64,000 nt of DNA from Anaeromyxobacter terrae. Lineage in GTDB: Bacteria > Myxococcota > Myxococcia > Myxococcales > Anaeromyxobacteraceae. Of the stretch, positions 45,793 through 64,000 are shown piece by piece (position 1 is the first letter of the stretch; every line of letters starts with the position of its first letter). The position numbers and the translations under genes are program-made. The stretch spans positions 1 through 64,000 of the forward strand of contig NZ_JALCYY010000013.1 of assembly GCF_022690685.1 (NCBI RefSeq), in the 5' to 3' direction. The notes under the pieces were generated by a model. It worked only from the letters and a program-made list of their open reading frames with translations, made no database searches and was not told where the DNA came from.

Positions 45793-48039
45793 TCACTTGA
45801 ATCGTTGCTGGATGAACTGCTGCATCTGGTGCCCCGACAGTTCCGCCGTGGACGCTCCCGCTCGCACGAAGAAGCGCTGATTGTCGCCCTCCTTCAGGAA
45901 CGCCGGAGACCCCGCTGGCTTCGCATCAATCACGAGGACGCGCTTGTCCTCGTAGCTGGTGAAGTGCGGATGGATGTACAGCGTGAACTGGCCACCGATG
46001 CGGTCCTTAAGAAGATTGTCGAAGTGAAGGAGCATCTTGTCCTCTGACTCGAACCCGTCTTCCTCCACGCCGACAGGGGCCCCGTCGTCGGCGACGCCGA
46101 TGACGAGCGTCCCTCCCGACGCTGCGTTCAGGAACCCGGCGATCGTGCGCAGAACGGTGAACTCCATCTTGGGATCAGGCTTCCGCGTGTGGAGGTTGGT
46201 GCGGAGCGTCGACTTGAACTCCGTCGTGACGCCCTCGCCACCCTTCACGAGAGCCGGAACATCGAGAACCTTCGGCTTCGCGTGCTCGTGCGCACCGACG
46301 AGTCGCGCGTAGCCATCCCGGATGACCCGCGCCATGATCTCCCGGCGCTTCTCGAGAAACTCTGAGTACTGCATCGCCGCCCACCCGTCCGGCAGGGCAT
46401 GCCAGCGGTGCATGTCCAGCAGTTCCTGGGCGGCGAGCCCCTTCGAAAGGGCGGGGAGGTACTTCGCCGGCGCGTCCTTCGAAATCTTCGCGTTGTCACC
46501 CCACTCCACCAGGGCGTAGTTCGCGATCTGGTTCGTATCCCGCGCCGATGCGATTCCGACTGAGGCGAGGTGCCCCTTGGGGAAGAGGTGGTGCTTCTCG
46601 ATGGCGTTCCTCGGGCCGCTCACCGACGGGTCGAGCAAGTCGGAGACCGTCTGTTTCGAGAAGAGGACGCGCGCATCGAGCAACACCAGCGCCGCGTAAT
46701 AGGCGAACAGCGCCGGGCTGCGCGCAGCGGACGTTGCTAGCTTGCCGGGCAGCGTGATCGACCAGAAATCGCCGGTCAGCTCCTCGTCGCAGGCGGCCTG
46801 AAGCGTCTTCACGAACCCATCTGCGTCTTTCACCCCGCGCAGTCTCGCGAGGTCGAACTCCATCGTGGACTCGGGAGAGCTGCTGTAGCGCGCCGTGAGG
46901 CTGCTCATGAAGAACCACTGCGCGATCAGCTTCCGGAGGCTACCCTCGTCGACCTTGAACTTCGAACGGCCGAGCAGGTACAGCACGTAGCTGTAGACCA
47001 GGGCCGTCTCCGAACTCACCATCGAGTCGTTTCGATAGCCGGCCTGCCGGATCGCGTTGAAGAAGCCGTGCCAGTGTGCCAGGTCGAGCGTCTCCGCCTG
47101 CGCACCCTTGAACGTCTCGAACTGCTCCGCGCGCCGCTCAGCGGTCACCGCACCGGTGTCGAGGTCCTTCCCTCTCAGAAGGGAGTACACGTGCTTCAGC
47201 CGGGCGCGCTGGAACCCGAGCCCAACTGCGATTCGCAGAAGCTGATCCGGCGACGGCTTGATGAAGTGGTTGTGAGGTGACTTCGCCTTGGGAGCCTTCG
47301 CGTCGCGACAGAACTGCTCGAGCTGAGTGCGCCCTTCGTCCCAGTAGACGCTCATTAGCGTGAGGATGAAGTCCGACTGGACGAGCGACTTGCCCTGACT
47401 GTTGATGCGCACGAACACTTCGGCGACCTGGTCGTCCTCCACCGTGGAGGCGAGCTCGAGCGCGGTGAACGGGTATGCTCGCAGCGAATACAGGCGCTGT
47501 ATCGCCTGCTCTACTCGCTGCCGTTCGCCGTCATCGAGCTGACGCACAGTCGCGATGCTCTGGAAGTACGTCTTGACCAAGTCAAAGAGGCTTAGGTGGT
47601 TGCTCCAGAGAACGGAGATGTCCGGTAGGACCGTCTTGTCTTTTCGGGTCGCCGCGTCTCCGACCTGGAACTCCTGGGTCAGCGGATTGAACGCGATCTC
47701 GATCTTCTCAGGCGTGTAGTCCTCTCGCACGACTGGCACGCCACGCAGCACCGCGTACAGCGATGTGAGCCGCTGTTGCCCGTCGACGATGAGAAGGCGC
47801 GCGGGCTTCTGTTTGCCCTCCGTGCCGATCGCCTTCGCGTCGGTGGCAAGCGCGTTTTGCCAGAACAGCAGGTAGCCCACCGGGTACCCGCGGTACATCG
47901 AATCGAACAGGTCGCGGACCTTCGCATTTGACCAGACGAAAGGTCGCTGGAGATCGGGCAGCGCGAGTTCCCCGAGCTCGATGAACTTCACGAGCGCCTC
48001 GAGGTCGTATCGGACTTCCGTGAAGAGAGTCTTGCTCAT
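45793..48039 (-). CDS. GmrSD-like DUF262-DUF1524 protein fused to an AlbA_2 (Schlafen) domain
   Basis: A 748-residue protein in three parts. DUF262 spans about residues 1-220 with LPDLQRPFVWSN (27-38), the MYRGYPVGYLLFW block and VDGQQRLTSLY (85-95). A helical middle leads to a DUF1524-like HNH region with IEKHHLFPKGHLAS (about 480-493). From about residue 600 a Schlafen AlbA_2 domain shows VTTEFKSTLRTNL and FLNAASGGTLVIGVADDG, ending VRAGASTAEL. DUF262/DUF1524 enzymes such as GmrSD restrict DNA with modified bases. AlbA_2 is a nucleic-acid-binding ATPase-like domain. The fusion suggests a modified-DNA-dependent restriction enzyme with added control. Confidence 0.85.
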   Translation of the reverse strand: MSKTLFTEVRYDLEALVKFIELGELALPDLQRPFVWSNAKVRDLFDSMYRGYPVGYLLFWQNALATDAKAIGTEGKQKPARLLIVDGQQRLTSLYAVLRGVPVVREDYTPEKIEIAFNPLTQEFQVGDAATRKDKTVLPDISVLWSNHLSLFDLVKTYFQSIATVRQLDDGERQRVEQAIQRLYSLRAYPFTALELASTVEDDQVAEVFVRINSQGKSLVQSDFILTLMSVYWDEGRTQLEQFCRDAKAPKAKSPHNHFIKPSPDQLLRIAVGLGFQRARLKHVYSLLRGKDLDTGAVTAERRAEQFETFKGAQAETLDLAHWHGFFNAIRQAGYRNDSMVSSETALVYSYVLYLLGRSKFKVDEGSLRKLIAQWFFMSSLTARYSSSPESTMEFDLARLRGVKDADGFVKTLQAACDEELTGDFWSITLPGKLATSAARSPALFAYYAALVLLDARVLFSKQTVSDLLDPSVSGPRNAIEKHHLFPKGHLASVGIASARDTNQIANYALVEWGDNAKISKDAPAKYLPALSKGLAAQELLDMHRWHALPDGWAAMQYSEFLEKRREIMARVIRDGYARLVGAHEHAKPKVLDVPALVKGGEGVTTEFKSTLRTNLHTRKPDPKMEFTVLRTIAGFLNAASGGTLVIGVADDGAPVGVEEDGFESEDKMLLHFDNLLKDRIGGQFTLYIHPHFTSYEDKRVLVIDAKPAGSPAFLKEGDNQRFFVRAGASTAELSGHQMQQFIQQRFK

Positions 48040-48825: not shown

Positions 48826-49278
48826 TCATGAACGCACGCGCTCGATGTGCACCGCGCGACGTCGCGGAAGCAACCGCGTCACGGCCGGCGTAAGTCGGAC
48901 CCAGATAATCGCGCCGCGCGGATGCCGATACGCCACCGGCGCGCGCAGCCTCCGGGCGCTGCTGACGATCCATGCATACGAGCCGGGCGCCGGAGCAGTT
49001 CCGCGTGAGAACCCCGCTCGGCGAGCGTTGCGCTGGCAGTCCGCGCGCGTCAGCGGGCCGACACATCCGGTGATCGTGCAGGTACCTACGATGGTACCGG
49101 ACCCGCTCTCGATCAACGCCACGGGTCCGCGAACGGCAGTGGCGCGAGACCGAATCTCCAGCGTCTTCGTGCCGGCCAGGATCTTGTCGAGCGGCCCGGG
49201 GAGGATGATGAGTCCGCGTGAGATCGCCGCTCGTTCCTGAATTGCGCCCCTCCTCTTCGAGCGCGCATGCGGACTCAT
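48826..49278 (-). CDS. ASCH-domain protein
   Basis: A 150-residue protein. After an Arg-rich start comes RGLIILPGPLDKILAGTKTLEIRSRATAVRGPVALIESGSGTIVGTCTITGCVGPLT, the ASCH (PUA-like) pattern with the basic groove residues. The C-terminus ends YRHPRGAIIWVRLTPAVTRLL. ASCH domains bind RNA or modified DNA; some are hydrolases. The gene is 83 bases after the third HNH gene, on the same strand, and is probably part of the same operon. A role in sensing nucleic-acid modification would fit. Confidence 0.75.
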   Translation of the reverse strand: MSPHARSKRRGAIQERAAISRGLIILPGPLDKILAGTKTLEIRSRATAVRGPVALIESGSGTIVGTCTITGCVGPLTRADCQRNARRAGFSRGTAPAPGSYAWIVSSARRLRAPVAYRHPRGAIIWVRLTPAVTRLLPRRRAVHIERVRS

Positions 49279-49360: not shown

Positions 49361-50818
49361 TCACATCATGTCCCGGCGGTGGGCCAGAGCGTCTAGCGAT
49401 GGCCGCGAAGCCTCGTTCGTGGGAAGCGCGATCGCCTTCCCCTCGTATTCCCAGTACGGCGTGTGGCGCAGGCTTCGGTCCAGCCGGACGCGCCATTCGG
49501 TGTCGAGCTCGAGAAGTCGCAGGTCAAAGAGCGTGTGCAGGTCAGCCCTGAGAAGTAGACCGTTCTGGACGTGATTGGTCTCCTCGCCGCGGAAGGGCAC
49601 GATGTGAGCGGCCTCGAGGACCTCCGGCACGTCACAGCCCGTGATCGCGCACGTCGAGCCGTATGCGCACAGCAGTGAGTCGCGGAACGGGCCTTGTCCC
49701 TGCCGACGGACGATCGCCGCCATCACCGTTCGGCGCCCGTCGGGTAGGTCTTTGGGATCGAACGGCTCGATCTCTGGTGCGGCCTGCGAGGCGGCCTCGG
49801 AAGCCGGGGGCGCCGCCTCCCGCACCGAGACAGCCCCAGGACACAGGGAATGCGGCACCTCGAACCCCAGCACCCTCAGGTACTCAATCAACTCCGGCGA
49901 GTACCCGACGTGCGGGGTAACCGGCTGCCGCTGCGCTGCGATCTCCATCGCAGCCACGTGGCTCCTCCACGCTCGTCCGTGGACCTCCGCGAGCGAGCCC
50001 AGAGGGAACCTGAGCGCGAGCGTTCCAGGCGCGCTCCCGAAGACTTGGCCTTCCTGGACGGCGAGACCAGCGCTCTTGAGCGCGCCGGGCAGCCCGTCCT
50101 CGCTCCTAACGATGATCTGGCACCCGTCCGGCGCGAGCGTCAGCGCGTACGGCATCCCCACGTTGAGCCGGACGAAGCTCGGCGCGAACGTGACGGTCCA
50201 GCAGGTCCCCCCGAGCGCGTTCGCCGACAGGATGGACCGGGAGAGCATCCGCGCGGCGTCTCGCCGAATCCCGGCGTCGGGGAACAGTGCGGCCCAGCGC
50301 GCCGCAGCGTCCCGGTCGCTCTCCCGAGAAATTTCAGCCTGATCGTCTTCGCGCGCGATGCCCGCGGCACTTCCCCCCCGCTGGCGCTCGTCCGCGCCAC
50401 CGAGCCGTTCAACCGCGCGGTCCCAGAGCGCGAGCAGGGCTTTTTTCGACCAGGGATTCCTTTCGGCCATCTCGAGCAGGAGCCGCCTCGCGGCCTCGTC
50501 CTGCTGGATCTCGGTTGGGTTTGGTCCGAACCACTTTGCCTTGCCCCGCGAGTCGAATCCCAGGTGAACGCCATCGTCCTGGATCGGCACGGGGACCTTC
50601 AACGGTACGTCGCCCGCCATGACGCCCATGAAGACGCCGCGGCTTCCGGGCGGCGCGACCGCGTCGGGATCCTGCATGTAGGCAAACACGATGCCGTCGG
50701 CCGTCGCCGGCATGACCTGCCCCGTCCTCCCGTTCTTCAGCCGGTACGTCGACATGCTGGGCTTCAGCAGGTGGAAGTTCTCCTCGAATGGGCCGTAGTA
50801 GACGGCCACGTGTCTCAT
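49361..50818 (-). CDS. HNH endonuclease (HNH_2 type), third of three
   Basis: About 485 residues. The ATG at 50816-50818 overlaps the stop of the second HNH gene (ATGA), deciding the start. The N-terminal domain reads AVYYGPFEENFHLLKPSMSTYRLKNG. The middle is of unknown fold with an acidic/Ala segment. The C-terminal HNH has LLCAYGSTCAITGCDVPEVLEAAHIVPFRGEETNHVQNGLLLRADLHTLFD (CAITG...HI.P...N...LH.LFD), the McrA/HNH_2 arrangement. The large N-terminal half probably recognises DNA or a co-factor protein. It ends the HNH trio. Confidence 0.8.
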   Translation of the reverse strand: MRHVAVYYGPFEENFHLLKPSMSTYRLKNGRTGQVMPATADGIVFAYMQDPDAVAPPGSRGVFMGVMAGDVPLKVPVPIQDDGVHLGFDSRGKAKWFGPNPTEIQQDEAARRLLLEMAERNPWSKKALLALWDRAVERLGGADERQRGGSAAGIAREDDQAEISRESDRDAAARWAALFPDAGIRRDAARMLSRSILSANALGGTCWTVTFAPSFVRLNVGMPYALTLAPDGCQIIVRSEDGLPGALKSAGLAVQEGQVFGSAPGTLALRFPLGSLAEVHGRAWRSHVAAMEIAAQRQPVTPHVGYSPELIEYLRVLGFEVPHSLCPGAVSVREAAPPASEAASQAAPEIEPFDPKDLPDGRRTVMAAIVRRQGQGPFRDSLLCAYGSTCAITGCDVPEVLEAAHIVPFRGEETNHVQNGLLLRADLHTLFDLRLLELDTEWRVRLDRSLRHTPYWEYEGKAIALPTNEASRPSLDALAHRRDMM

Positions 50819-51591
50819 CGGTTCGCCTCCGCTCGGCGGAACTCCTTGAGTCGATGCCAAGTCAGGTACGTCCGGTGCTCCGGCGCGAGACGCCCGACCC
50901 GCAAGCGAGCGTCGAGCCCGAGCCATCTTCGATCGGGAACGGACAAGTGCGGGGAGACCAGGATCTCGCCGTCATCCGCGACAGTGATGAAGCCGGCGTC
51001 GAAGGCGGCATCGAGGTGCGGTGCGAGCAGGAGCCCGTTGTAGACGTCGAGCCGCTCGGCGTCCGTGCCGCACGCCGCCCACGGCTTGATGTGGCTCGCG
51101 CGGAGTAGCTCGGGGACGGTCAGGCCGGTCACGGCGCACCGGCCCTCCCAGTACTCCATCAGCCCGGCGCGGAAGACGTCCTGGCCTACCCGCTGGACGA
51201 CAAGCCGCTCGGCTTCGGTGGCGCGCGGGAGCGCCTTCGTCTTTTCCTCAAAGACGTGCAGGAGCTCGTCCGGCAGGGTGCGCGCGAGCTGGTATGCCCG
51301 GCGCAACAACTCGTGCAGGACGTCGAAGCCTGGCGTCATCCGCGCAGCCGCAGCCCCGGGGGGCAGCCCGACAGTAGTCGTCGTGCCGAGCGCGCCAAGC
51401 GCGCGGTCCACGTCCATCCGGGAGAGCGCGACGACGGGCTGGCCGGCCTTGGCGACGCCGAGCCACACGCGAAGCGGCGCGTGATTGCTTCCGAACGCGA
51501 GCCAGTCGCCATGCGCGCCTCGCGGACGGTCGAACCCGTTGTCCGCCGCAGCCTTCTCGAGCCGTGTGGCCGTCAGGGGAGCCAGGCTCAC
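50815..51591 (-). CDS. HNH endonuclease (HNH_2 type), second of three
   Basis: A 258-residue protein. The N-terminal domain (about 1-130, MSLAPLTATRLEKAAADNGFD) is of unknown fold. The HNH part reads EGRCAVTGLTVPELLRASHIKPWAACGTDAERLDVYNGLLLAPHLDAAFDAGFI (CAVTG...SHIKP...N...HLDAAFD), then the active-site metal-binding layout. This is the HNH_2 class often found as a lone restriction nuclease. It overlaps both neighbouring HNH genes by four bases, so all three are coupled. Confidence 0.85.
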   Translation of the reverse strand: MSLAPLTATRLEKAAADNGFDRPRGAHGDWLAFGSNHAPLRVWLGVAKAGQPVVALSRMDVDRALGALGTTTTVGLPPGAAAARMTPGFDVLHELLRRAYQLARTLPDELLHVFEEKTKALPRATEAERLVVQRVGQDVFRAGLMEYWEGRCAVTGLTVPELLRASHIKPWAACGTDAERLDVYNGLLLAPHLDAAFDAGFITVADDGEILVSPHLSVPDRRWLGLDARLRVGRLAPEHRTYLTWHRLKEFRRAEANR

Positions 51592-52397
51592 GTCGCGGCT
51601 CCTCGCCTACCCTTCTGTAGGATCCGGCGGAGCTCCTCGATAGCCATGGGAATCTCCCGGCCATGGTGCACGACGCGATGGCACGTCGCGCAGAGCAGCG
51701 CGAAGGCGTCCGTCCCCTTGGGCACCTGCGGCCCCTTGCTGAGCGGGATGCGGTGGTGCACCTCGAGGACCTCGGCGTGCGAATCGCCGTACCGAGCGCC
51801 GACGTCGATGCCGCACGCATCGCAGCGGAGCGCTCCGACAGCCGCGCGAACCTGCAGGAGCCTTTGGCGGTTCGCCGCGTTGCGCTCGGTTGCCACGTGC
51901 GTCCGCAGCACCTTCCGCCCTTCCGGCGCGAGCTGAAGGTCGCCGACCTGCTCATCCACGATGGCATCGAGCGTGGGACGCGTCAGCTTGCGGGCACGGA
52001 CGTTTCGTCCCCGCGTTGGGGAGCACCGGTCCGCTTCCCGGAGCAGGGCATTCAGGCGGCTCGCGATCTCGGCGGGAGGAGTGGCGTAGCTCCGCGGATA
52101 CCGAAGCCACGCCCATTCCGGGATGCTGCGCCGGACGTCCTCGAGCTCAAGTGGGCGCTGCAGCAGCTTCAGTTCTCCGACCAACGACCTGAATGCAGGA
52201 CGGTTGCCAAACAGGCCGCGCGTGGGCTCGTCCTCGATGACACCAGTCGCGGTGAACTGCGATCTATTGAAGAGGAAGACTGCATCGTTCCCCGGTTGTG
52301 CGTCTTTCGGCACGATCCAGCCAATCGGCTTGCCGCGGCGTGCCGCCCGCTGTAGGGCATTCTTCGCAGTGTTCTCTCCGACCAGAACCCGCAGCAT
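51588..52397 (-). CDS. HNH endonuclease with N-terminal PUA-like domain, first of three
   Basis: A 269-residue protein. The N-terminal 60-70 residues (PGNDAVFLFNRSQFTATGVIEDEPTRG) resemble a PUA/EVE-like domain, here only suggested. A helical linker with RKLTRPTLDAIVDEQVGDLQLAPEGRKVLRTHVATERN follows. The HNH motif is LRCDACGIDVGARYGDSHAEVLEVHHRIPLSKGPQVPKGTDAFALLCATCHRVVHHG (C-x2-C...VHH...L...C-x2-CH). The classical HNH type differs from the two HNH_2 genes after it. It starts 11 bases after the methyltransferase gene's stop, so it belongs to the same operon. Confidence 0.85.
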   Translation of the reverse strand: MLRVLVGENTAKNALQRAARRGKPIGWIVPKDAQPGNDAVFLFNRSQFTATGVIEDEPTRGLFGNRPAFRSLVGELKLLQRPLELEDVRRSIPEWAWLRYPRSYATPPAEIASRLNALLREADRCSPTRGRNVRARKLTRPTLDAIVDEQVGDLQLAPEGRKVLRTHVATERNAANRQRLLQVRAAVGALRCDACGIDVGARYGDSHAEVLEVHHRIPLSKGPQVPKGTDAFALLCATCHRVVHHGREIPMAIEELRRILQKGRRGAAT

Positions 52398-52408
52398 CTC
52401 CCCCCCTA

Positions 52409-55400
52409 TCAGTTCTTGCGTCGTGCCGCCTTGCGGCCCGTCTCCTCACGAGGCGGGTGCGCGACACGAGGATCCGCCGGAGACGGGTCGAGCCGCGTTC
52501 GGTACGGGCGGCGGGTACGGATAGCGTCCGCCATTGCGGCGTACACCTCCAGGATCACGCGCTTGGTGCGGTACTCCCCGTAGGCCTTCTCATCGTTCTT
52601 CCGTACGATAGGGAAAGTGTCGAGGATGTACTCGGCGTCCTCGTGGGAGATGCCGTAAAGATGGAAGAAGGCCGCGTCGAGCTCGCAGCGAAGCGCGAAG
52701 CGCCGATCGGGATCCCAGCGGAAAGGGGGGCCGCCATAGCCCAGATCGTTCGCAAAGCCCTCCAGGTCCCACGCTGTGTATGTGAGCTCAAGGACGTGAG
52801 GGCGCAGCCACTCAGCGACTGTCAGGCCCGCTCCCCAAGCCGCTGGCTCGGTGTACGCTTCCGGTCGCAGTACAGGAAGCTGTTTCAGTATGAAATAGGT
52901 AAGGGAGGTCCCACCGACCTTCTGGCGCGCCGTGTAGTCGAACGGAAGCGCACAGAGATTCGCGTACAGCGCTGCAACGAGCCGGGGGTCCGCACTGGAC
53001 ATCATCAAAGGAAACTTATGCCCTACGGCCGCACACGGGAGCACCGAAGCAACGACGGTCCTCTCGTTGTAGCTCTTGGACACGTCTCGCCAGCCCAGCA
53101 GCCACCCGGATGCCTTCGACTGCCCGAGACGCGCTGACACGTCCTCCGCTGCGACCCAGTATCGCGGCGATGGAGAGTAGTAGGGATCGGTGAGCTTCGT
53201 GAGTGGCACGTCTGGAAGAGCGCGTGTATCCGTCCCCTCCTTCTCCGCGGGGCGATCCGCGTAGTCGCCATACCTGTGATCGAAGTGGTGCAGCATCTTC
53301 CCTTCGATCAGCGGCAGGTAGCGAGTCCCGTTCCCGACGTATCCGCTCCCGTCACGCGCACACCCGCTTGACTCTAAATCCGCTCGAGAACGGAATAGTT
53401 CCGAGTCATTCGCCATGTGAAACATGGTCATGAACCGAAGTGCCCACGGATTGCCGAGCGGATCTTGTTCGCGCCAAAGGACACCTACCCTCCGATACAG
53501 CGCTAAGTTGATGTTCGCGTCGCGCCCTGATCGGAAGGTAGGACAAGTCCTCGTGTTGGGATTGACGACGCGAAAGTCGGCTGCCGCAAGCGAGAAGTGC
53601 CGTAGCGGATTACTGAGATCAGCCACCTGGTACGCAAAGAAGAGTAAGTCGGCCCGCTCCCGACCCGATCCGATAGTGAGCAGTGAGAACTTCGTCTGCC
53701 TTGCCACGTCGACGAAGATGCCGTCTTTGTTCTCAAAGTCGTAGATAGAACGCAGTTGATCGGCGTCGACCAGCGCACAGAAGTATTCTTTTGTTGTATC
53801 GTCCGTTGCGATTCCAGTCGGCACAATGAAGCCGGCGCGCCCCGACGGTCCGAGAATGGTCCGGTTATGCTCGGCAAAGAGCGTGTACGTGTTCACGTCT
53901 CCCTTCCCGCACAGCGGGAACCGGCCTGAGTTGCGAGCCAGGTGGCTTTGACCTTCGGCCTCCCGGCTCGCCGCCTTCCAGTCGCTCCACAGGGCGGGGT
54001 CGATCCTGGGCAGGGCGCTTATGAGCTTCTTGCGGGACGCAGCATTGGGAGCATCCGCGATCTCGGGGCTGCGCGAGGCGAAGAACTCCTGTTCCTGAAG
54101 CTTCACCCGCTCCCACGGTGGGTTTCCAATAACGACGTCGAATCCTCCCCGCGCAAAGATTTGAGGGAACGCAAGGTGCCAGTGAAAGAATCGGTACTGG
54201 CTCGATAGGTCTTGCACCGACTTCTCGGTGAGCGGCGGCTGACCCCTTCCATCACGAATCTGCCTCCACAACTCGTTCGTCGGTGCTGCCTCCACAATCG
54301 GGGAGGGCTTCTTTGGTTCTAGAGGTGGCTTGGGCCAAACAAATGCCGCGCACCAAGCATCGGCCACAAGCCGTTGGTGCCGGTAGGCAGCGGAGGCGCG
54401 AAGATCTTCCCAGCGAGCTTCCTTGCTAGCCACGGCTGCTAGATCCGCATCGGGAGCCTCGTCGAGCGCGGCAACTGCTTTGGCTACCTCAGCGGACTCC
54501 CGCTCGCCAACCGGCGCTTTCGACAGATCAAACGCTCGCTGCCCTTCTGCGGCAGCCTTGTTTTTCTTCTTGAGGAGGCTCGCCGTCTTCTTGTCGTCCC
54601 CCTCGATGGGCTCGAAGGCGGCATCGGGCACACCCCTCTTCATCAACTCCGGCGTCGCACCGAGGAGCGCATTCCCGCGTTGGACGTGAGAGTCGAGGAA
54701 CGAGAGCGGTTGCCCGGGCTCGACGGCCTCCATCCAAAGACTCACGCGGCAGAGTTCCACCGCCATCGGGTTCACGTCGACACCAAAGACGCACCGACTT
54801 ATGACTTGGCGGAGCGCGTGGCGGTACTCCGCGGGCAAGGGAGTTCCCTCGGCTTGGAGCCGCGCCACCTGCGCCGCGAGGCGGCGCGCAGCAGCGAGAA
54901 GGAAGTGACCGCTGCCGCACGCTGGATCGACGATGGCGAGGCGGAGGAGCGCCTCCGCTGGGCTCGCGGGGTTTGCCGCGATGGTCTGCTGCACCACGGG
55001 TTCAAGCGCGGTATCGAGTAGAACCTGCACGAGCGAATCGGGGGTATAGTAGCTGCCCGTCGTCTTCCGAGCGTTCCCCTTTGTCTCGGCTCCCGTAGCG
55101 AACGTGAAGCCTCTTCCTCCTCCAACGATGCGCGGCACTAGCTCGAGGAGGCTCTCATAGACGCTGCCGAGCTCCTCAGGCCCCATGTCGCGCCAGTTCA
55201 CGCGCGAGAGCCCGGAGTCCTCGCGCAGCCATGAGAGCTTGAATAGCGCCAAGAGAATGGCGCGGTTCTCAAGCCTCGCGGAGTCCAGGTGAGGACACTG
55301 GTGCGCGGCGAAGATGCCACCGAGTGCGGGCAGGGCGAGTCGCGGCTCGCCGGTAGCCACGCCGCGCAGTACGACCTTCAGTCCCTCCCACAGGTCTGAG

Positions 55401-56443
55401 AAGCGATCGTGTGCGCTTCGCTTGAGCGACCGATCGCGGACTCGGCGAAGGGCGTACCCGTCCGCGTAGAGCTTGCGCTGGGCTTCGTCCGCGCCGTCGG
55501 GGTGCAGCACCCCGCGCTCCTCGACGGTCAGGAGGAAGATGATCCGGTAGACGAGGCGGAGCAGTTCCTGGAAGTAGGCCTGTGTCGTCAGATTCCCGGC
55601 GTGCAGCGCCTCGCGTAGGCCTGCGTTTCCAGGGTGTGCGAGGAAGCCCGTCCCGAGCGCGACAAGAGCGTCCTCCACCCCGTTCCGCAGGTGCTCCCGA
55701 GCACGCGTGCCCTCCTCGCGACCGGCCGCGCGCCACGCCTCGAGGGCACACTCGGCCGCCGGAGTCCCGTGCCTGCCGAAGCGGGTTTCGTGTGCGACGA
55801 GCCACAGGGCGGCGAAGTCGGCGTAGCGGGTCTCGGTGAAGATCCGCTCGAGGTCGGCCTCGAGCCAGGTCGGGCGCGTGAGGCTCGCGTTGTCACGGAG
55901 CACGCGGAGCGTGACCCCATCGCTGGCGATCCCCCACATCGCGCCGTCCGAGGCGTTCAGGTACTCCTGGGCGAGCCCGAAAGCACTTCGTCGACGCGCA
56001 CCGTCGCCGAACACCGGGTTGGGCCGGTCCAGACCCGAGCCCGCAGAACCGATCACGACGGGCACGCGACCGCCAAGCGCGACATGGCCGAGGGGGTACA
56101 TCCTCCCCTCCACCTCGAGCGATCCTGTCGCGGCGAGCGACGCAAAGCCGAATGCCTCGCGCAGGAGCGCAGTCACGAAGCGCTCCGCGAGCGCCTTCGG
56201 GTCCGCGCCCGCGGCCTTCCCGGCGGCGAACTCCGCCCAGTGCGCCTGCGCGATGCGCCAGTAGCGGCCGATCTCGTCCCGGACGTTGAGGCCCTTCGGG
56301 ATCCGATAGTCCGCCTCTCCCTGCTGGTCCGCCAGGAGCTGTGCCACGCGCGCGAGCCACTCGGGCGAGAGGAGCCCACCTTCGATGGTGAGCGCCTCGA
56401 ACGCGATCTGGACGTCACGGTCGCGGCGGCGACGGGGGGCCAT
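52409..56443 (-). CDS. Large Eco57I-type N6-adenine DNA methyltransferase (DrmMI/PglX-like)
   Basis: A 1344-residue protein. A long N-terminal region of about 480 residues precedes the methyltransferase core. Motif I is DPACGSGHFLLAAARRLA (about 505), VFGVDVNPMAVELCRVSLWMEA follows, and the N6-adenine motif IV is FDVVIGNPPWERVK (about 775). The C-terminal 500 residues look like a target-recognition and specificity domain. Size and layout match DISARM class 1 methyltransferase or BREX PglX. Its start overlaps nothing but follows the SNF2 helicase stop by one base, so both are coupled. It presumably marks host DNA for self-protection. Confidence 0.9.
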   Translation of the reverse strand: MAPRRRRDRDVQIAFEALTIEGGLLSPEWLARVAQLLADQQGEADYRIPKGLNVRDEIGRYWRIAQAHWAEFAAGKAAGADPKALAERFVTALLREAFGFASLAATGSLEVEGRMYPLGHVALGGRVPVVIGSAGSGLDRPNPVFGDGARRRSAFGLAQEYLNASDGAMWGIASDGVTLRVLRDNASLTRPTWLEADLERIFTETRYADFAALWLVAHETRFGRHGTPAAECALEAWRAAGREEGTRAREHLRNGVEDALVALGTGFLAHPGNAGLREALHAGNLTTQAYFQELLRLVYRIIFLLTVEERGVLHPDGADEAQRKLYADGYALRRVRDRSLKRSAHDRFSDLWEGLKVVLRGVATGEPRLALPALGGIFAAHQCPHLDSARLENRAILLALFKLSWLREDSGLSRVNWRDMGPEELGSVYESLLELVPRIVGGGRGFTFATGAETKGNARKTTGSYYTPDSLVQVLLDTALEPVVQQTIAANPASPAEALLRLAIVDPACGSGHFLLAAARRLAAQVARLQAEGTPLPAEYRHALRQVISRCVFGVDVNPMAVELCRVSLWMEAVEPGQPLSFLDSHVQRGNALLGATPELMKRGVPDAAFEPIEGDDKKTASLLKKKNKAAAEGQRAFDLSKAPVGERESAEVAKAVAALDEAPDADLAAVASKEARWEDLRASAAYRHQRLVADAWCAAFVWPKPPLEPKKPSPIVEAAPTNELWRQIRDGRGQPPLTEKSVQDLSSQYRFFHWHLAFPQIFARGGFDVVIGNPPWERVKLQEQEFFASRSPEIADAPNAASRKKLISALPRIDPALWSDWKAASREAEGQSHLARNSGRFPLCGKGDVNTYTLFAEHNRTILGPSGRAGFIVPTGIATDDTTKEYFCALVDADQLRSIYDFENKDGIFVDVARQTKFSLLTIGSGRERADLLFFAYQVADLSNPLRHFSLAAADFRVVNPNTRTCPTFRSGRDANINLALYRRVGVLWREQDPLGNPWALRFMTMFHMANDSELFRSRADLESSGCARDGSGYVGNGTRYLPLIEGKMLHHFDHRYGDYADRPAEKEGTDTRALPDVPLTKLTDPYYSPSPRYWVAAEDVSARLGQSKASGWLLGWRDVSKSYNERTVVASVLPCAAVGHKFPLMMSSADPRLVAALYANLCALPFDYTARQKVGGTSLTYFILKQLPVLRPEAYTEPAAWGAGLTVAEWLRPHVLELTYTAWDLEGFANDLGYGGPPFRWDPDRRFALRCELDAAFFHLYGISHEDAEYILDTFPIVRKNDEKAYGEYRTKRVILEVYAAMADAIRTRRPYRTRLDPSPADPRVAHPPREETGRKAARRKN

Positions 56444-56444
56444 C

Positions 56445-59273
56445 TCAGCGATCTCCCGGGAGGAGGACGTAGACCCCTACGACATCGGGCGGAAGGAGCG
56501 CCTTCACCGACCACGAGCCGCGTGCATCCGCCGCCTCGCGGACCCGCCTGTGATCAGCGAGGAGCGCCTCGGCACGACGCCGCGTGAAGGCTTCCAGCTC
56601 CGCGATCCGGTCGGAGAGCAGATTGACGGCCTTCGCGAGAACGCGCTCCACCACCCGCGCCGGCGGGTCCTTTAGCGGGGCGAGCGTCAGGAGCTTGAGG
56701 GCGTCCAGTCCCTCGACGACCCGCGGGGACTCGACACCGCCCCAGGCGAGAGCGGCGGCCTCCTCGACCAGCAGGGTGGAAACCCGTCCCCTCCTCGCGG
56801 TCAGCTGGTGGCGCAGCCGCAGTAGCGCCACGGTGGTCTGCTCCGAGACGTCCTTAGAGACCCAGCAGCCGATGCGGCCCAGCACGCCGGCATCGGGGGC
56901 CTCGCCGTTCCCGGCGTCGTCGCGAACGTCTGCGAGCGTCCGCTCTAGGAGAGTCTCCGCAAGGATCGCGACGAGTGGGTGGCTACGCTGCACGGCCCTG
57001 CACCGCGGCGCAGGAGGGGTCGCGAAGTCCACGAGCGGGGCTCCCGTCAGCCCCTCCGCCTCCAACCGTTCCCGCACGTCCTCGGGGAGCGGCGCGAGCG
57101 CCGCCTTGAAGCCCCGGCGCTTCGTCGACGAGAGGGGCTCGAGCCCGGACCCGAGGCGGGCGAGAGAACGACCCGTGAACCGCTCCACGTCCCCCTCTCC
57201 GCCGATCGCGGAGAGGGTCTTCTGCCACTCGGGGAGGACGTCGTCGGGCCTGAGGCGGCGCTGGGCGAAGACGGTGCGGTTCGCCTTTGCGACAATGGCG
57301 GCATCGCGCCAGCGATCGTCGATCGCTCTGGCCTCCGGCGTCTCGCTGAAGTCGAGCACGCGCTGCTTGCGATCGGACTTGTGTCGCAAGAAGACTGCAC
57401 GCATCAACGCCTGCGTGAGTGAGTGGCTCTCGTCCGGCAGCGGGACCGGGACGCCCAACTCCTGCCGGATCTTCTCGGCCTTCCGTAGGATGACCTCGAG
57501 GACGGCGCCGTCGACCGGGTTGTTCGCGCCGTAAATGAGCGTCGCGCGGACGACGGGGCTCTTCTGGCCGAAGCGGTCCACCCGTCCCTCGCGTTGCTCA
57601 TGACGAGTGGGGTTCCAGGAGAGGTCGTAGTGAACCACCGCGTCGAAGTGACCTTGCAGGTTGACGCCCTCTGACAGGCAGTCGGTCGCAACGAGGAGGC
57701 GCCGCTCCGCTTCGCCCATGTCCTCGACCCGCTCCTTGCGCTCGTCCGACGTCAGCTCGCCCGTCACGACGGCCAGCTTCACGCCACCGAAGCGCCCTTC
57801 GAGGTGCTTCGCGAGGTAGTGCGCGGTAGCGATGTACCGGCAGAAGACGACCGGGTTGAAGCCATCGTCGATGAGCTTGCCGAGGTGGTCGGTCAGGAGC
57901 TTCAGCTTGGGATCGCCGGACTGGCCAGCCAGCTTCTCGGCTTCGTCGATCAGGCCGGCCAGCGCGCGATCCTCGATCTCGAGAGGAGGCTCTACGTCGT
58001 CCTCGACCAGTACATCGCTCGAGCCATCGAAGATCCGCTCTTCGAGAGCATCCTCTTCGAACTCCCCTTCGCCTGCTCGGGCGCGGCTGCGGAGCGCCTG
58101 CGCTCCGGCGGCCGGGCTCGAGGCGACGCAGCGCATCAGCGCGAGCGTGCCCCAGAAGTTCAGGCGTCGCCGGCGCTCGTCACCGCCGGCGGCCTCCACC
58201 ACCGCAGCGCAGTAGTCCAGTACGCCCTCGAAGAAGCGGTCCCAGGCACCAGTCAGCTGGTAGGTGAGCTCCTTCGTTTCGCGCTTGGGGAAGGTGTGCC
58301 CTTCCTTCCACTCGTCGAGGTCCGGCCTGCGCCGTTGAACGAAGTGGCGCGACAGCGCCTCGCGGAGTTCCTCCCGCTCCTTCCCACTCGCGTCCTTGAG
58401 CGTCCCGAACCGCGCGTCGATGAGACCGAGGAGACGATAGAAAGCGTCCTCGTCGCCGCTGTGCGGCGTGGCGGTGAGCATCACGAGGTGGCGGGCAATC
58501 GCCGCCGCGCCGCTCGCGACCAGACCCTTGAGCAGCTCGTAGCGCTGGTGCCGCCCCGCTCCGGGTGCCGCGCACGTATGCGCTTCGTCCACGATGACGA
58601 GCTCGGGGCACGCCCGCAGGAAGTCGTCCCGGCGCCGATCGCTCTTGATGTAGTCGAGGCTCACGACGGTGAAGCGGTGGACAGAGAAGATGCTCTCCGT
58701 CTGCGGCAGGTCGCGCTCGAGCCGGTTCGCCGTGCCGGCGGTCACGGCGACCGCTCGGATGTGGAAGCGGTCCTCGAGTTCCGCAAGCCACTGGTCGACG
58801 AGGTGGGGCGGACAGAGCACCGTGAACCGCTCGATCTCCCCGCGATCGAGGAGCTCTCGCGCCACCAGCCCCGCTTCGATGGTCTTGCCGATGCCCACGT
58901 CGTCGCCGATGAGAAGGCGAACGGGGTCGAGCTTCAGCGCCATGAGCAGCGGCACGAGCTGGTAAGCGCGGGGCTCGACCGAGATCTGGCCGAAGCTGCG
59001 GAATGGGCCCGCGCCGCGGCGGAGCGAGAGCAGGAGTGCGTCGCGGAGGAGGAGCGCCGAGTCCTGTCCGCCCTGCTGGGCCAAGGCCGGAACCGGGAAG
59101 GTCGCGTCGGTGACTGGCTCGGCCTCGAGGCCGAGGTGCACGACGGCGAAGTCCTCCTCGGAGCCCGAGACGGGCCGCAGCCTGAGAACCTCCGCATCGC
59201 TTCCCGTGAGGACGATCCACTCGCGCCCCCGGGCGCGCACGAGGCTGCCCGGGCTGTACTGGACGTTGGGCAT
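56445..59273 (-). CDS. SNF2-type helicase, DISARM DrmD-like
   Basis: A 942-residue protein. An N-terminal beta-rich region (GSLVRARGREWIVLTGSDAEVLRLRPV) precedes Walker A LLIGDDVGIGKTIEAG (121-135). Motif II LVIVDEAHTC is near residue 230. The C-terminal lobe has VHYDLSWNPTRHEQREGRVDRFGQ (motifs V/VI, SNF2-like). A tail with LTARRGRVSTLLVEEAAALAWGG may be regulatory. DrmD-type helicases accompany DrmMI-type methyltransferases in class 1 DISARM. The ATG starts three bases after the DUF1998 gene's stop, so the three large genes form an operon. Confidence 0.9.
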   Translation of the reverse strand: MPNVQYSPGSLVRARGREWIVLTGSDAEVLRLRPVSGSEEDFAVVHLGLEAEPVTDATFPVPALAQQGGQDSALLLRDALLLSLRRGAGPFRSFGQISVEPRAYQLVPLLMALKLDPVRLLIGDDVGIGKTIEAGLVARELLDRGEIERFTVLCPPHLVDQWLAELEDRFHIRAVAVTAGTANRLERDLPQTESIFSVHRFTVVSLDYIKSDRRRDDFLRACPELVIVDEAHTCAAPGAGRHQRYELLKGLVASGAAAIARHLVMLTATPHSGDEDAFYRLLGLIDARFGTLKDASGKEREELREALSRHFVQRRRPDLDEWKEGHTFPKRETKELTYQLTGAWDRFFEGVLDYCAAVVEAAGGDERRRRLNFWGTLALMRCVASSPAAGAQALRSRARAGEGEFEEDALEERIFDGSSDVLVEDDVEPPLEIEDRALAGLIDEAEKLAGQSGDPKLKLLTDHLGKLIDDGFNPVVFCRYIATAHYLAKHLEGRFGGVKLAVVTGELTSDERKERVEDMGEAERRLLVATDCLSEGVNLQGHFDAVVHYDLSWNPTRHEQREGRVDRFGQKSPVVRATLIYGANNPVDGAVLEVILRKAEKIRQELGVPVPLPDESHSLTQALMRAVFLRHKSDRKQRVLDFSETPEARAIDDRWRDAAIVAKANRTVFAQRRLRPDDVLPEWQKTLSAIGGEGDVERFTGRSLARLGSGLEPLSSTKRRGFKAALAPLPEDVRERLEAEGLTGAPLVDFATPPAPRCRAVQRSHPLVAILAETLLERTLADVRDDAGNGEAPDAGVLGRIGCWVSKDVSEQTTVALLRLRHQLTARRGRVSTLLVEEAAALAWGGVESPRVVEGLDALKLLTLAPLKDPPARVVERVLAKAVNLLSDRIAELEAFTRRRAEALLADHRRVREAADARGSWSVKALLPPDVVGVYVLLPGDR

Positions 59274-59276
59274 GCG

Positions 59277-62200
59277 CTAACCCCGGAGTTCCTTCGCGAG
59301 ACGCTCGAACGGCTCGCCCCAGCGGTCCTCGGTTCCTTCGAAGGCGATCACCTCGTACCCGCGGTCACGCAGCGGGCCAGCCTGCGAGGCGTCGCCGAGC
59401 ACGACCGCGACGAAGAGGTCGCGCCAGACGAGCGGGTACGTCTCGCCGTTCGCGGCGAGCGGCTCCGGATCGGGGCGCGGCAGATCCCGATCGAGCGCGA
59501 GCGCGAGCCACCGGGCGACCGCGGGAGACGCGGATGGGCCTCGAGGAGAAGCCGGGGCGGCGGGCTCGGTGGACGGATCCTCCACCTGCTGGGCGAGGCC
59601 CTCCACCCTGGCTGACGCGAGCCTCCAGAGAATCTCGCGCGCCTTCTCGTCGCGGCGGTCGAGTAGCTCGTGGTCGGGCTGGTTGTAGTACGACATCACG
59701 CACCGGTAGCACGCCGCCACGCAGCGCGTCCCCGCCACGTCCCGGAGCTTCTGCGGATCCGGGGGCAGCGTCCGGCCGTCGGGGCCGAGGTCGAAGTGCA
59801 GGATCCGAAGCGCGCGGAGCGCGATCTGCGCGACCGACTCCGGCTCCGCTACGAGCCGGGTGAGCACGCCCGCGCCGCCCTCCGTCGCCTCGTAGAGCAG
59901 GAACCCCTTGCGGTCGTCGCGGGTCGGCATCGGCTCCGCGAGGATCTCGCTCTCCTCGAGTTGGAAGACCGACTCGATGCCGCGCAGCAGCGCGTGCTGG
60001 ACCGTCGCGAGCGTCTTCTCGTCGAGGCTCGTCTCGGCCGGCTTCACGAGAAGCGCGTTCTTGCGGTCGAGCACCCACGGCACGATCCGCTGACGAGGCG
60101 CCGCGGTGGGATCGCCGGTCCCGTCGCCCTCGTCCTCGTTCTTCGCCCAGTAGCCCGTGACCGGGTCGATGAGGAACCCGAGCTGCTTCCGGTTCGCGCG
60201 ACGCCGGAGCCCCTTGTTGATGCGAGAGATGGTGGCCCCGGGGCCGTAGACCAGCCGGACGACCTCCCCGTGTCCGTCCGCCGCCGCGCCCTTCCGGAAG
60301 TCGAGGACGCCCTCGCGTCGCGCCCACTCGAAGGTCGTCTGGAGCTCGAAGCCCTGGCGCTGACGCTCCTCGTCGTTGGCGGTGATCCGCTCCGCCTGGA
60401 GAGTCGCCACGTTCTCGATCCGGTAGATGCTGTTCACGATCTCGGCGTCACCCAGCGGAACGCCGCAGGCGTGGCACACGGAGGTCCTGTCATCGAAGTG
60501 TCCCCCGCCGCACTCCCTGCAGATCCGGACGGTCTTCGTCGGCAGCATGGAGTCGGGCGTCGCGCTCTCCTTCTGGTTGAGCGCGAGCAGCGCCCGGACG
60601 ACGCGATAGGCGCGGCCCTCGTGGTAGACGAGGCTCCGCGGCCCGAACTCAGAGAGCGCGAGGAAACGGGGACGCTGCAGATATGTCTGCTTGCCGCGTC
60701 CGTCTGCGGTGGCCGGCACGTAGGCCATGAGCGGCAGCCGCGGGAAGTTGTACCCGGGAAGGAAGCCCTCGGTGGCGAGGTATCGGTATGTGTAGAAGTC
60801 ACTCGAGAACGTGCTCGAGCCCTTCTGCAGCAGGTTGATCTGGTCGAATGCCTGCGCGTGGCGACTCTTCGCCGCCAGCCGGTCCTGGTTGGACGCCGAG
60901 TAGTCGTCCATCATCCGTCGGGAGGCGTCGCGCTGCGCCTCGGCCGCGGCGAGAAGGTCGCGCCAGCGGTCGAATGCCTTCGAGAGCTCGTCCAGGGCGC
61001 GGCCAGCCACCTGCTCCGCGAACGCCTCGCGGCCGGGGTACCAGGGCGCGGCCTCGCGCGTCAGCTCCGGGTCGACGAGCTCCAGCAGGCGGCGAATGCG
61101 CGCGGTGGCCTCCTGCGTGACACGTGGCTCGGCCATCGGCTTTCGCACGTCCTCGCGCATCGGCCGCGCGGGGTCTGAGAGGACGAGGATGTCCGCGATG
61201 GACGGATCGAGCGGCTGCTCGGTGCAGGCGAGCCAGATCGCCTGCAGGTGGCTCTCGACCAGCTCGCGGTTCGCGAGGTCGAGGAGCGGCGGGCGAACCT
61301 CTCCGTACACCATCGCCTTCGGATCGCTGAAGAAGTACTGATCGTGCGGGCTCTGCGCCGCGCAGTAGGTGAGCACGAGCGCGGCCTGGCCGCTGCGCCC
61401 GGCGCGCCCGCTGCGCTGCGCGTAGTTTGCGGGGGTGGGCGGCACGTTGCGGAGGTAGACGGCGTTCAACGCGGAGATGTCCACGCCGAGCTCCATCGTG
61501 GGCGAGCAGAAGAGCACCGGCAGGAATCTCGTCGCCTCACCCATCTGTCGGAGCTGATCGGCCGCCGTCTTCAGCTCCTCCCGCTCCTTGTCGCCGTAGC
61601 GGAAGCGCTTCTCGCGGATGACGCGCTTGTCGCCCTCGACCTGCGCCGTGTGCTCGCGCGCCTCGAAGCCGAAGAGCGGGTGCGCCGGCGAGCGGAGTAG
61701 ATCGGCGAGGGTGCCGTAGAACTCCTCGAAGTAGGGATTCCTGACGACGGCCGACTTCTTCCGCCGCTTGCGGCGCGGCTGCGCCGGGTCGTCCTGCCGG
61801 AAGAGGACGCAGTCCTCGTTGAGCCGCCAGCCGGTCACGTCGCCGAAGGGCGTCGCCTCCTCGGAGACCAGCCCGTGCTCTCTCGCCGCGCGGAGGATCC
61901 CGACGATGAGCTTCTCCATCTCGTCGGTCTTGAGCTGCCGAACGGCGCCGCTATCCCAGAGCTCCGTGTCTCGGAGGATGCGGCCCAGCGCGCTCCGGGC
62001 GCCACCGCGCACGACGAGATCCTCGTCGCGCAGCGCGATGTCGCGCCGGCTGAGGGGCGCTACGATCAGCCAGCGTGCGCGCCGCGGCTGCTCGTCCTCG
62101 CCAAAACCCCAGGGCGGACGCAGCCGTGCGAACGATCGGGCGCGGAGCGACTCTACGTTGCTCGCGTCCAGCACGACGCTGCGGATCGCCATCCACTTCC

Positions 62201-64000
62201 GGAGGTGATCGAGGACCTCGCGGTAGACCTCGCGACGCACATTGACGCTCGCCGCCTTCAGGATCGGGCTCGCCTTCGCGATCTCCTCCTCGTCCGCGAT
62301 GAGCTCCTCGAGGCCGAGGTACTCGACGTCCACGAGCCCCAGCTGCTCGAGGTTTGGGTTCGTGTAGCGCCACCCGCGCCGCTGGTCGAACCAGATGCGG
62401 TAGGCGAGCACCTCGCGGAGCGTCTTCTCCGCCTCCTGCAGGTTGAAGCCCTTGAGGCTCGGCTCGAGCAGCCACTCTGCCCTGATCTCCTGGATGGGCC
62501 GATCGAACCCGAGTGACTTCTGCTGCGCGTCGCCCAGCCGGTCGCTTCGCAGGCCCGCTTCCCCCGCCGCCTCGAGGGCGCCCAGGAATCCGCCGCGGAG
62601 GAGGCTCGCGAAGAGGAAGTCGTTGAAATGCCCGGACTGAAGCGCGGCGTCCTGCCGGTTGTCGGTGAAACCGAGCAGCTTCCGCTTGAACGCATCGAGC
62701 CCGGATTCCTCGCCGTGCATCCATCGGAGCGAGCTTGCGACGAGGACCGTGGTCGCGGAGCTGCGGCCCTCCGCGGAGAGCGAGGCCAGCCGGTTGCGGT
62801 CCCGGGCGGCCGTGCCCTGCGTCTCCTTGCAGCGGAGGCACAGGCGGAAGCGCCCGGGCATGAACCAGGCCCGGTTGCCCGAGCCCACCTTGCCGGTAGG
62901 CTCGACCCGAAGCTCTTGGGCGCGGTTCGCGCGGTAGTGTGGCTTGAGGCGCGGCGTCTGGTTGGCGTCGTACTCCAGCCAGTTCTCTGGGTAGTCCTCC
63001 ACCTGATCTGAGAACGCGAACTCGGCGTCCGGTGGGTGGAGGGTGAGGAACCCGAACACCTCGCCGTCGAGCACACCCTCGGTCTCGTCGGACGCCTCCG
63101 CCTTCTCGTCTCCCTCGGGCTTCGGCGGTGCGGCGTCGTCGATGTCCCGCGCGAGCACCGTGCGGTCGCCGGCCTCGGTCTTCAGGCGCACCGGGTGATA
63201 CTCCTGCCCGCACGTCCTGCAGAAGTGGAGGGGGTAGAGCCGCTTGTCGGGGTGGCCGGGCAGGAACTGCTGGCCGTCAACAGTGACGACCCGCTGTCCG
63301 GTTGGCTCGACCGTCGCGAAGGCGTGACCCGCGCCCGAGATGAACTGGTGGAGCTTGAAGGCGAAGAAGCTCGCTTCCTTTCCTCCCGGCCCCGTTCGCT
63401 CGACCTCGGGTACGCTCGAGACCATGAGGAGGTTCCGGAGCGCGGTGCGGCACGCGGCCTCTTCCTTTCCCGAGTCGCGCGCGAGCGTCGTCACGGCTTC
63501 GCTCACCGTGAGTGGCTGCGCCCGGACGAGGCGTTGGTCTGGCTCCGACCACGTCACTCCGAGGCGGGTCTCGACCCAGATCGCGAGCGGGTGAACACGC
63601 AGCGCGTCGTCGGAGATGTCGGCGGGGATCGGCGTGTCGATCGCCACCGCGAGCGCGTCCTTCACCCGGTCGGCGTCCCGGTCCGGATCGGTGACTCGCT
63701 CGAGCTTCTCGGTGATGACGTTGTTCGGCGTCACCTTGACTGAGAAGAGCTTCGAGGCGACCCGCGCAACGGCCGCGTTCTTGTCCTCCTGCGAGCCTCC
63801 CGAGGCCATCGTGGCCGACGTGCCCACGCACTGGAGGCCGGCCCGGGCGAGGCGTTCCCGGACGCGTCGAACGAGGAGCGCCACGTCCGCGCCCTGCCGA
63901 CCGCGGTACGTGTGCAGCTCGTCGAGCACGAGAAACCGCAGACCGTGGCAGTTGCCGATGACCTTCTTGTCGAGCGGGTCCTGACGCGTCATCAGGAGCT
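59277..64000 (-). CDS. Large DEAD/DEAH helicase with C-terminal DUF1998 (MrfA/DruE-like), 5' end outside window
   Basis: At least 1574 residues; the start and Walker A are beyond the right edge. Motif II is in [31 protein letters not shown]. The helicase C-terminal lobe has [53 protein letters not shown]. A zinc ribbon-like [26 protein letters not shown] lies in the middle. The DUF1998 end has [28 protein letters not shown] (C-x3-C-x2-C). Related helicases are MrfA, DISARM DrmA/DrmB and Druantia DruE; the length favours a DruE-like or DrmA-DrmB-like fusion. It lies first in the visible defence operon, upstream of the SNF2 gene. Confidence 0.85.
   Translation of the reverse strand, partial: [1573 protein letters not shown]

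Follow-up and report, generated by a model that had tools for sequence, protein, structure and literature searches.

An ARMADA Type I-like operon of Anaeromyxobacter terrae in which an HNH nuclease probably takes the place of a decayed Vsr-type domain

The soil bacterium Anaeromyxobacter terrae carries an operon of six genes, all on the (-) strand, at the right-hand end of contig positions 1-64000 (the window, meaning the whole 64,000-nucleotide stretch that was analysed). The genes are transcribed in the order YprA/DUF1998 helicase, SNF2 helicase, DNA methyltransferase, HNH_a, HNH_b, and HNH_c. Their content, strand, and spacing agree with an earlier note on this DNA, which had described a DUF1998 helicase, an SNF2 helicase, a 1344-residue methyltransferase, and three HNH genes. 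The operon fits ARMADA Type I as a variant, and HNH_b, the middle one of the three HNH nucleases, is the probable successor of a Vsr-type nuclease domain that has decayed at the C-terminus of the helicase. The features of the operon are the following.

59277..64000, (-) strand: ArmC-like YprA/DUF1998 helicase, the C-terminal 1573 of 1782 residues lying in the window; MZB and Helicase_C domains
59280..59579, (-) strand: degenerate Vsr/DUF559-type nuclease domain, the last 100 residues of the helicase (alignments, Pfam, AlphaFold2 model)
56445..59273, (-) strand: ArmA-like SNF2 (BrxHII/DrmD-related) helicase, 942 residues (profile matches, motifs)
52409..56443, (-) strand: ArmB-like PglX/Eco57I-type N6-adenine DNA methyltransferase, 1344 residues (profile matches, motifs)
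51588..52397, (-) strand: HNH_a, 269 residues, with a McrA-type HNH domain (Pfam; mREase_IV; EcoKMcrA 6GHC, E 4e-5)
50815..51591, (-) strand: HNH_b, 258 residues, with a VcaM4I-type HNH domain at residues 121-254 and a new N-terminal domain at residues 1-110
49361..50818, (-) strand: HNH_c, an HNH_2 nuclease of 485 residues, or 521 from an upstream ATG (Pfam, gene calls)

The helicase gene is truncated by the window edge; the sequence right of 64000, to which the earlier note had pointed for its start, completes it as one open frame that begins at 64625, encodes 1782 residues, and has no internal stops. Helicase motifs are found at residues 117 (Walker A, GSGKS) and 234 (LDELH), and the motifs of the SNF2 helicase (GIGKT at 127, DEAH at 229) and of the methyltransferase (DPACGSG at 506, NPPW at 774) are intact. 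Three bases separate the helicase from the SNF2 gene and one base separates the latter from the methyltransferase; HNH_a and HNH_b overlap by 4 bases, as do HNH_b and the ATG of HNH_c. Each of the three HNH proteins scores above the curated cut-off of a Pfam HNH family (PF01844 or PF13391). The same operon is found in Anaeromyxobacter soli SG29 at 99-100% protein identity, so the trio of HNH genes counts as one observation rather than two.

Profiles from Pfam, PADLOC, and NCBIfam identify the first three genes as a YprA/DUF1998 (MZB) helicase, an SNF2 helicase, and an Eco57I/PglX/DrmMI-type methyltransferase, in agreement with the earlier view of a defence core, made of two helicases and a methyltransferase, that is related to DISARM as well as to Druantia. 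The nearest profiles of the SNF2 helicase are DrmD, BrxH, and DpdE; the core is matched by BrxH, DrmD, and DrmMI of PADLOC and by PglX and DrmD of NCBIfam, all under the NCBIfam cut-offs. This gene set is that of ARMADA Type I (Bell et al. 2025 preprint, PMC12458937), in which a YprA-like helicase comes first, a BrxHII-like one second, and a PglX-like methyltransferase third. The window shares with that system the fused-DUF1998 YprA-like helicase, here one protein of 1782 residues, the BrxHII-like SNF2 helicase, the PglX-like methyltransferase, and the gene order, which is also that of nearly all relatives. The Type I helicase ends in a predicted active Vsr-type nuclease (PMC12458937); such a domain is intact in basal relatives of the present operon, but the window helicase lacks the Vsr catalytic residues and appears to retain the fold, hence its description as a variant. 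The window differs further by a dedicated HNH gene in the operon, and the main text of Bell et al. names no HNH nuclease in ARMADA (PMC12458937).

In a tree of the helicases, the window joins Type I-like systems of Deinococcus, Streptomyces, Planktothrix, and proteobacteria in a clade of 17 rows with support 100, apart from the rows of ARMADA II (two from E. coli plasmids, a third from a plasmid of Martelella) and of one Druantia III locus; the tree was made by a quick method and has long outside branches, so that it supports a position of the window within the Type I-like systems and gives no order for the outside groups. By gene set, gene order, and tree position the operon thus fits ARMADA Type I, and its predicted function in this host is defence.

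Three other systems share parts of this core and can be set apart from it. ARMADA Type II, as in an E. coli plasmid example, has three homologous core proteins but in the order ArmA-ArmB-ArmC, followed by the UvrD-type helicase ArmD (RelE/UvrD); its large helicase has about 2113 residues, it lacks HNH_b, and it is separate on the helicase tree. No UvrD-type helicase is found among the genes scanned around the window operon. DISARM Class 1 has a related SNF2 helicase and a related methyltransferase, DrmMI, but the window SNF2 protein scores 293 bits against DrmD where the curated cut-off is 610, and the split drmA and drmB genes of DISARM contrast with the single fused helicase here. The PLD nuclease gene drmC, which the earlier note had already failed to see, is absent from the genes scanned around the operon with Pfam, PADLOC, and NCBIfam. 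For Druantia, the DruE profiles are the best PADLOC matches of the helicase (210 bits, partial), but the DruE row falls outside the window's helicase clade; PADLOC finds none of the partners DruH, DruABCD, or DruMFG downstream, and the upstream genes are of CBASS type. The fused helicase, the lack of drmC and of any Dru partner among the genes scanned, the DrmD score below cut-off, and the tree together rule out the DISARM/Druantia hybrid that had been proposed, in favor of ARMADA Type I.

The SNF2 helicase also matches the PADLOC model PDLC02853, named DpdE, over its full length with 628 bits, and no other Dpd gene is found. This model probably takes in ARMADA proteins; given such a match, ARMADA loci may be labelled Dpd or DISARM by annotators.

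The C-terminal domain of the helicase is intact in basal relatives, which carry the Vsr/DUF559 motif (D..GPHH), and in three of these Pfam DUF559 scores above its cut-off. The same Pfam family gives no match in the window helicase. In the alignment, the catalytic D is replaced throughout the window's branch and a stretch of about 10 residues that includes GPHH is missing. An AlphaFold2 model of the degenerate domain has a predicted local distance difference test (pLDDT) score of 87, and its best VIA-align 2 matches are 3HRL (Z 8.5) and I-Bth0305I (3R3P, Z 7.6), values near the background level of that method; Foldseek gives no significant match for the domain. The assignment of the fold therefore depends mainly on how the sequence aligns with that of intact relatives, by which the domain would be a pseudo-nuclease in the window's branch that still weakly resembles an endonuclease.

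Which of the HNH genes belongs with this core was examined in 16 further Myxococcota genomes that have the SNF2 gene and in 80 loci across phyla. The loci were chosen with the SNF2 protein as query, so their choice is unbiased by the HNH genes. HNH_b recurs as a distinct family (at least 149 bits, versus 54 for HNH_c), on the same strand downstream of the methyltransferase and up to 5.5 kb away from it. The gene accompanies the core in Myxococcota as well as in Proteobacteria, Verrucomicrobia, Spirochaetes, and other groups, and in nearly all intact relatives of the window's branch. Full-length HNH_b is present in 11 of 195 Myxococcota genomes, nine of which have the SNF2 gene (ArmA) and two a decayed ARMADA; no HNH_b is found outside ARMADA loci or their remnants in the 195. 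Two decayed ARMADA loci (L135 in genome G011 and L136 in G099) have large internal deletions of the core and retain an open HNH_b frame.

The other two HNH genes behave differently. No homologue of HNH_a is found in the operons of relatives across the surveyed loci, and HNH_c is a further nuclease that does not recur with the operon and is unlinked to it in relatives. Since HNH_a and HNH_c are in place in no relative, the trio as one unit is rejected. Of the idea that the HNH proteins are effectors, the part on HNH_b survives, as a probable nuclease effector, and the part on the two that are not conserved with the core does not. The genes just outside the window include neither separate drmA and drmB nor drmC; their presence there, with unlinked HNH genes, was what the earlier note had named as speaking against its hybrid system, and on linkage the outcome is divided between HNH_b, which is linked, and HNH_a and HNH_c, which are not.

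An AlphaFold2 model of HNH_b (mean pLDDT 95.7) aligns at residues 121-254 with the HNH domain of the EVE-HNH endonuclease VcaM4I (6YEX; Z 17.4, root-mean-square deviation 3.0, 131 aligned residues, 38% identity). Alanine changes of H224, D250, and D254 impair cleavage by VcaM4I (PMC7897488); counted along the alignment, these residues correspond to H167, D194, and D198 of HNH_b, which do not vary among the 21 members of the family that were aligned. HNH_b is thus predicted to cleave DNA. The two proteins share the HNH domain with its catalytic H/D/D but differ at the N-terminus, where HNH_b appears to lack the EVE reader of modified bases; 6YEX aligns to the HNH part alone. Residues 1-110 of HNH_b give only weak matches to unrelated folds (Z about 7), none of them to a known reader such as EVE or SRA. 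Without its linker helix, the HNH domain of VcaM4I is a toxic, non-specific nuclease (PMC7897488), so HNH_b, which appears to have no reader, plausibly relies on a partner for its targeting.

The distribution of HNH_b follows the state of the Vsr domain. HNH_b is present in 50 of the 50 decidable loci in which Vsr is lost, a count from a small draft sample that leaves out 12 further, undecided Vsr-lost loci. In 46 of the 50 the gene belongs to the operon itself, within the fetched locus in 42 and just beyond it in four (with coordinates that fit the same contig); in the other four it lies elsewhere in the draft genome, one of these last being a fragment at a contig edge. Among loci with an intact Vsr domain, HNH_b is present in 7 of 24; the 24 include four Gammaproteobacteria from a later, separate search, none of which has it. 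On the SNF2 tree the states are nested: Vsr present without HNH_b, then both present after the gain of HNH_b, then HNH_b alone after the loss of Vsr. This order, with HNH_b arriving before the decay of Vsr, is what replacement predicts. One locus, L115, has lost Vsr and lacks HNH_b, with an aconitase gene following the ATPase gene; it is set aside as an exception because a frameshift and an insertion disrupt the methyltransferase gene, so the operon is a decayed one.

Several points weigh against replacement. Parsimony gives one change of the Vsr state and two of HNH_b, and with a single Vsr change there are no independent replicates, so that the association rests on one event; the Fisher test on the raw counts (p 2e-11) is for this reason not taken as proof of an exchange. 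The 12 undecided loci include two (L091 and L104) that end at contig edges and have no HNH_b in their draft genomes. Both nucleases are kept in seven systems, and 17 others have Vsr without HNH_b, so that an origin of HNH_b as a substitute is not a necessary conclusion. The degenerate Vsr domain could retain another role, and the experiments of Bell et al. concern ARMADA Type II alone, with none for Type I (PMC12458937). With these points counted, functional replacement of the decayed Vsr nuclease by HNH_b is strongly suggested, short of proof, and is the probable course of events. The earlier note had supposed that HNH proteins replace DrmC. An HNH protein as replacement stands as probable, whereas the thing replaced is likelier to be the Vsr-type domain, once fused to the helicase and decayed here.

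Foreign DNA would be recognized and processed by the YprA helicase, the SNF2 helicase, and the methyltransferase, the last of which probably marks self. In the ancestral state the helicase would cut the DNA through its fused Vsr-type domain; in the window's branch the cut would be supplied by HNH_b, the last gene of the conserved operon, in place of the pseudo-nuclease. With the reader apparently swapped for a different N-terminal domain, it would probably be the helicase complex, and not a mark on the DNA, that recruits and licenses HNH_b. An anti-phage operon of ARMADA Type I-like descent, belonging to a branch that has outsourced DNA cleavage to HNH_b, is on balance the likely nature of the locus. 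If HNH_b is the effector, a large helicase-based defence complex has moved from a built-in to a separately encoded cutter, and the relatives with neither, both, or one of the nucleases make the exchange directly testable.

The strongest competing explanation sees in HNH_b a restriction nuclease, modification-dependent or classical, that merely travels with ARMADA and forms a restriction-modification pair with the methyltransferase while the helicases act independently. Its HNH domain is closest to that of the Type IV enzyme VcaM4I, its PADLOC and NCBIfam matches are restriction-type HNH models, and it directly follows the methyltransferase gene in nine loci; yet the protein shows no known reader domain such as EVE or SRA, its N-terminal fold matches are weak, it is not found outside ARMADA loci or remains in Myxococcota, and Vsr loss is confined to loci that bear it, all of which makes this explanation unlikely. 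That HNH_b serves as a back-up, or as an abortive-infection effector, for a blocked core and is not the regular cutting enzyme, with Vsr decaying by drift once the helicase core sufficed, is improbable: one branch (7 loci) does keep both nucleases, and the toxicity of the VcaM4I domain without its linker helix (PMC7897488) means that HNH_b could stay inactive until triggered, but ARMADA II acts without abortive death (PMC12458937), and the presence of HNH_b in every decidable Vsr-lost operon points to a main role. A single effector set of three HNH proteins, each tuned to a different DNA modification, can be given very little credence, for although the trio is contiguous with its 4-base overlaps in both the window and A. 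soli, no relative has HNH_a or HNH_c in place and the trio is that of one species group.

The junction of the methyltransferase gene and HNH_b holds more than 500 extra bases in 39 of 48 loci, whereas the two other junctions do so in 4 of 84 and in 7 of 78. Its contents are mostly defence genes: LmuB-like ATPases, Septu PtuA/PtuB, AbiLi/AbiLii, AAA ATPases of candidate systems, a YhcG nuclease, a Schlafen-AlbA protein, GmrSD, a kinase, and a DprA-like protein with a phosphoribosyltransferase. The LmuB-like ATPase (about 650 residues) goes together with a C-terminal extension of about 130 residues on the methyltransferase: across 59 loci, 27 of 27 have both and 32 of 32 have neither, and the tree shows 14 independent changes, each of them in the same direction (p 1.2e-4). 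Loci with the pair include L031, L039, L046, L048, L078, L082, L098, L103, L111, and L124. The extension matches no Pfam or PADLOC family and is, as a guess, an ABC-3C middle component. The window has neither partner, its methyltransferase being the short form without the extension.

One tentative interpretation is that the junction is a docking slot in which guest modules are exchanged between the core and the terminal nuclease, where they may plug in as alternative sensors or effectors, the pairing of the LmuB-like ATPase with the methyltransferase extension being the clearest example; such a slot provides a rule for the placement of guest defence genes inside a defence operon. In the window HNH_a is the lone occupant, and it is proposed to be an accessory nuclease lodged between the methyltransferase and HNH_b. 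A scan of viral contigs finds no relatives of HNH_a. Its N-terminal domain recurs on other HNH proteins and looks EVE/PUA-like by eye alone, with no match in a profile search of the PDB. In another genome of the genus (locus L142), a frame of 489 residues joins an HNH_a-like N-terminal domain to an HNH_c-like nuclease part, which indicates that parts are swapped among HNH proteins.

Upstream of the helicase, at contig positions 65044-67786 on the same strand, lie two tandem CBASS-type cyclase genes and a gene for a SLATT-domain protein, with conjugation-type genes further upstream. On the other side, a small ASCH-domain protein barely above the Pfam cut-off adjoins the HNH genes (48826-49278). 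Beyond it, positions 45793-48039 encode a protein of 748 residues with a GmrSD N-terminal domain and, fused to it, a Schlafen-AlbA_2 domain; relatives of this protein occupy the slot at two loci (L099 and L107), and at a third (L065) one lies downstream of the core.

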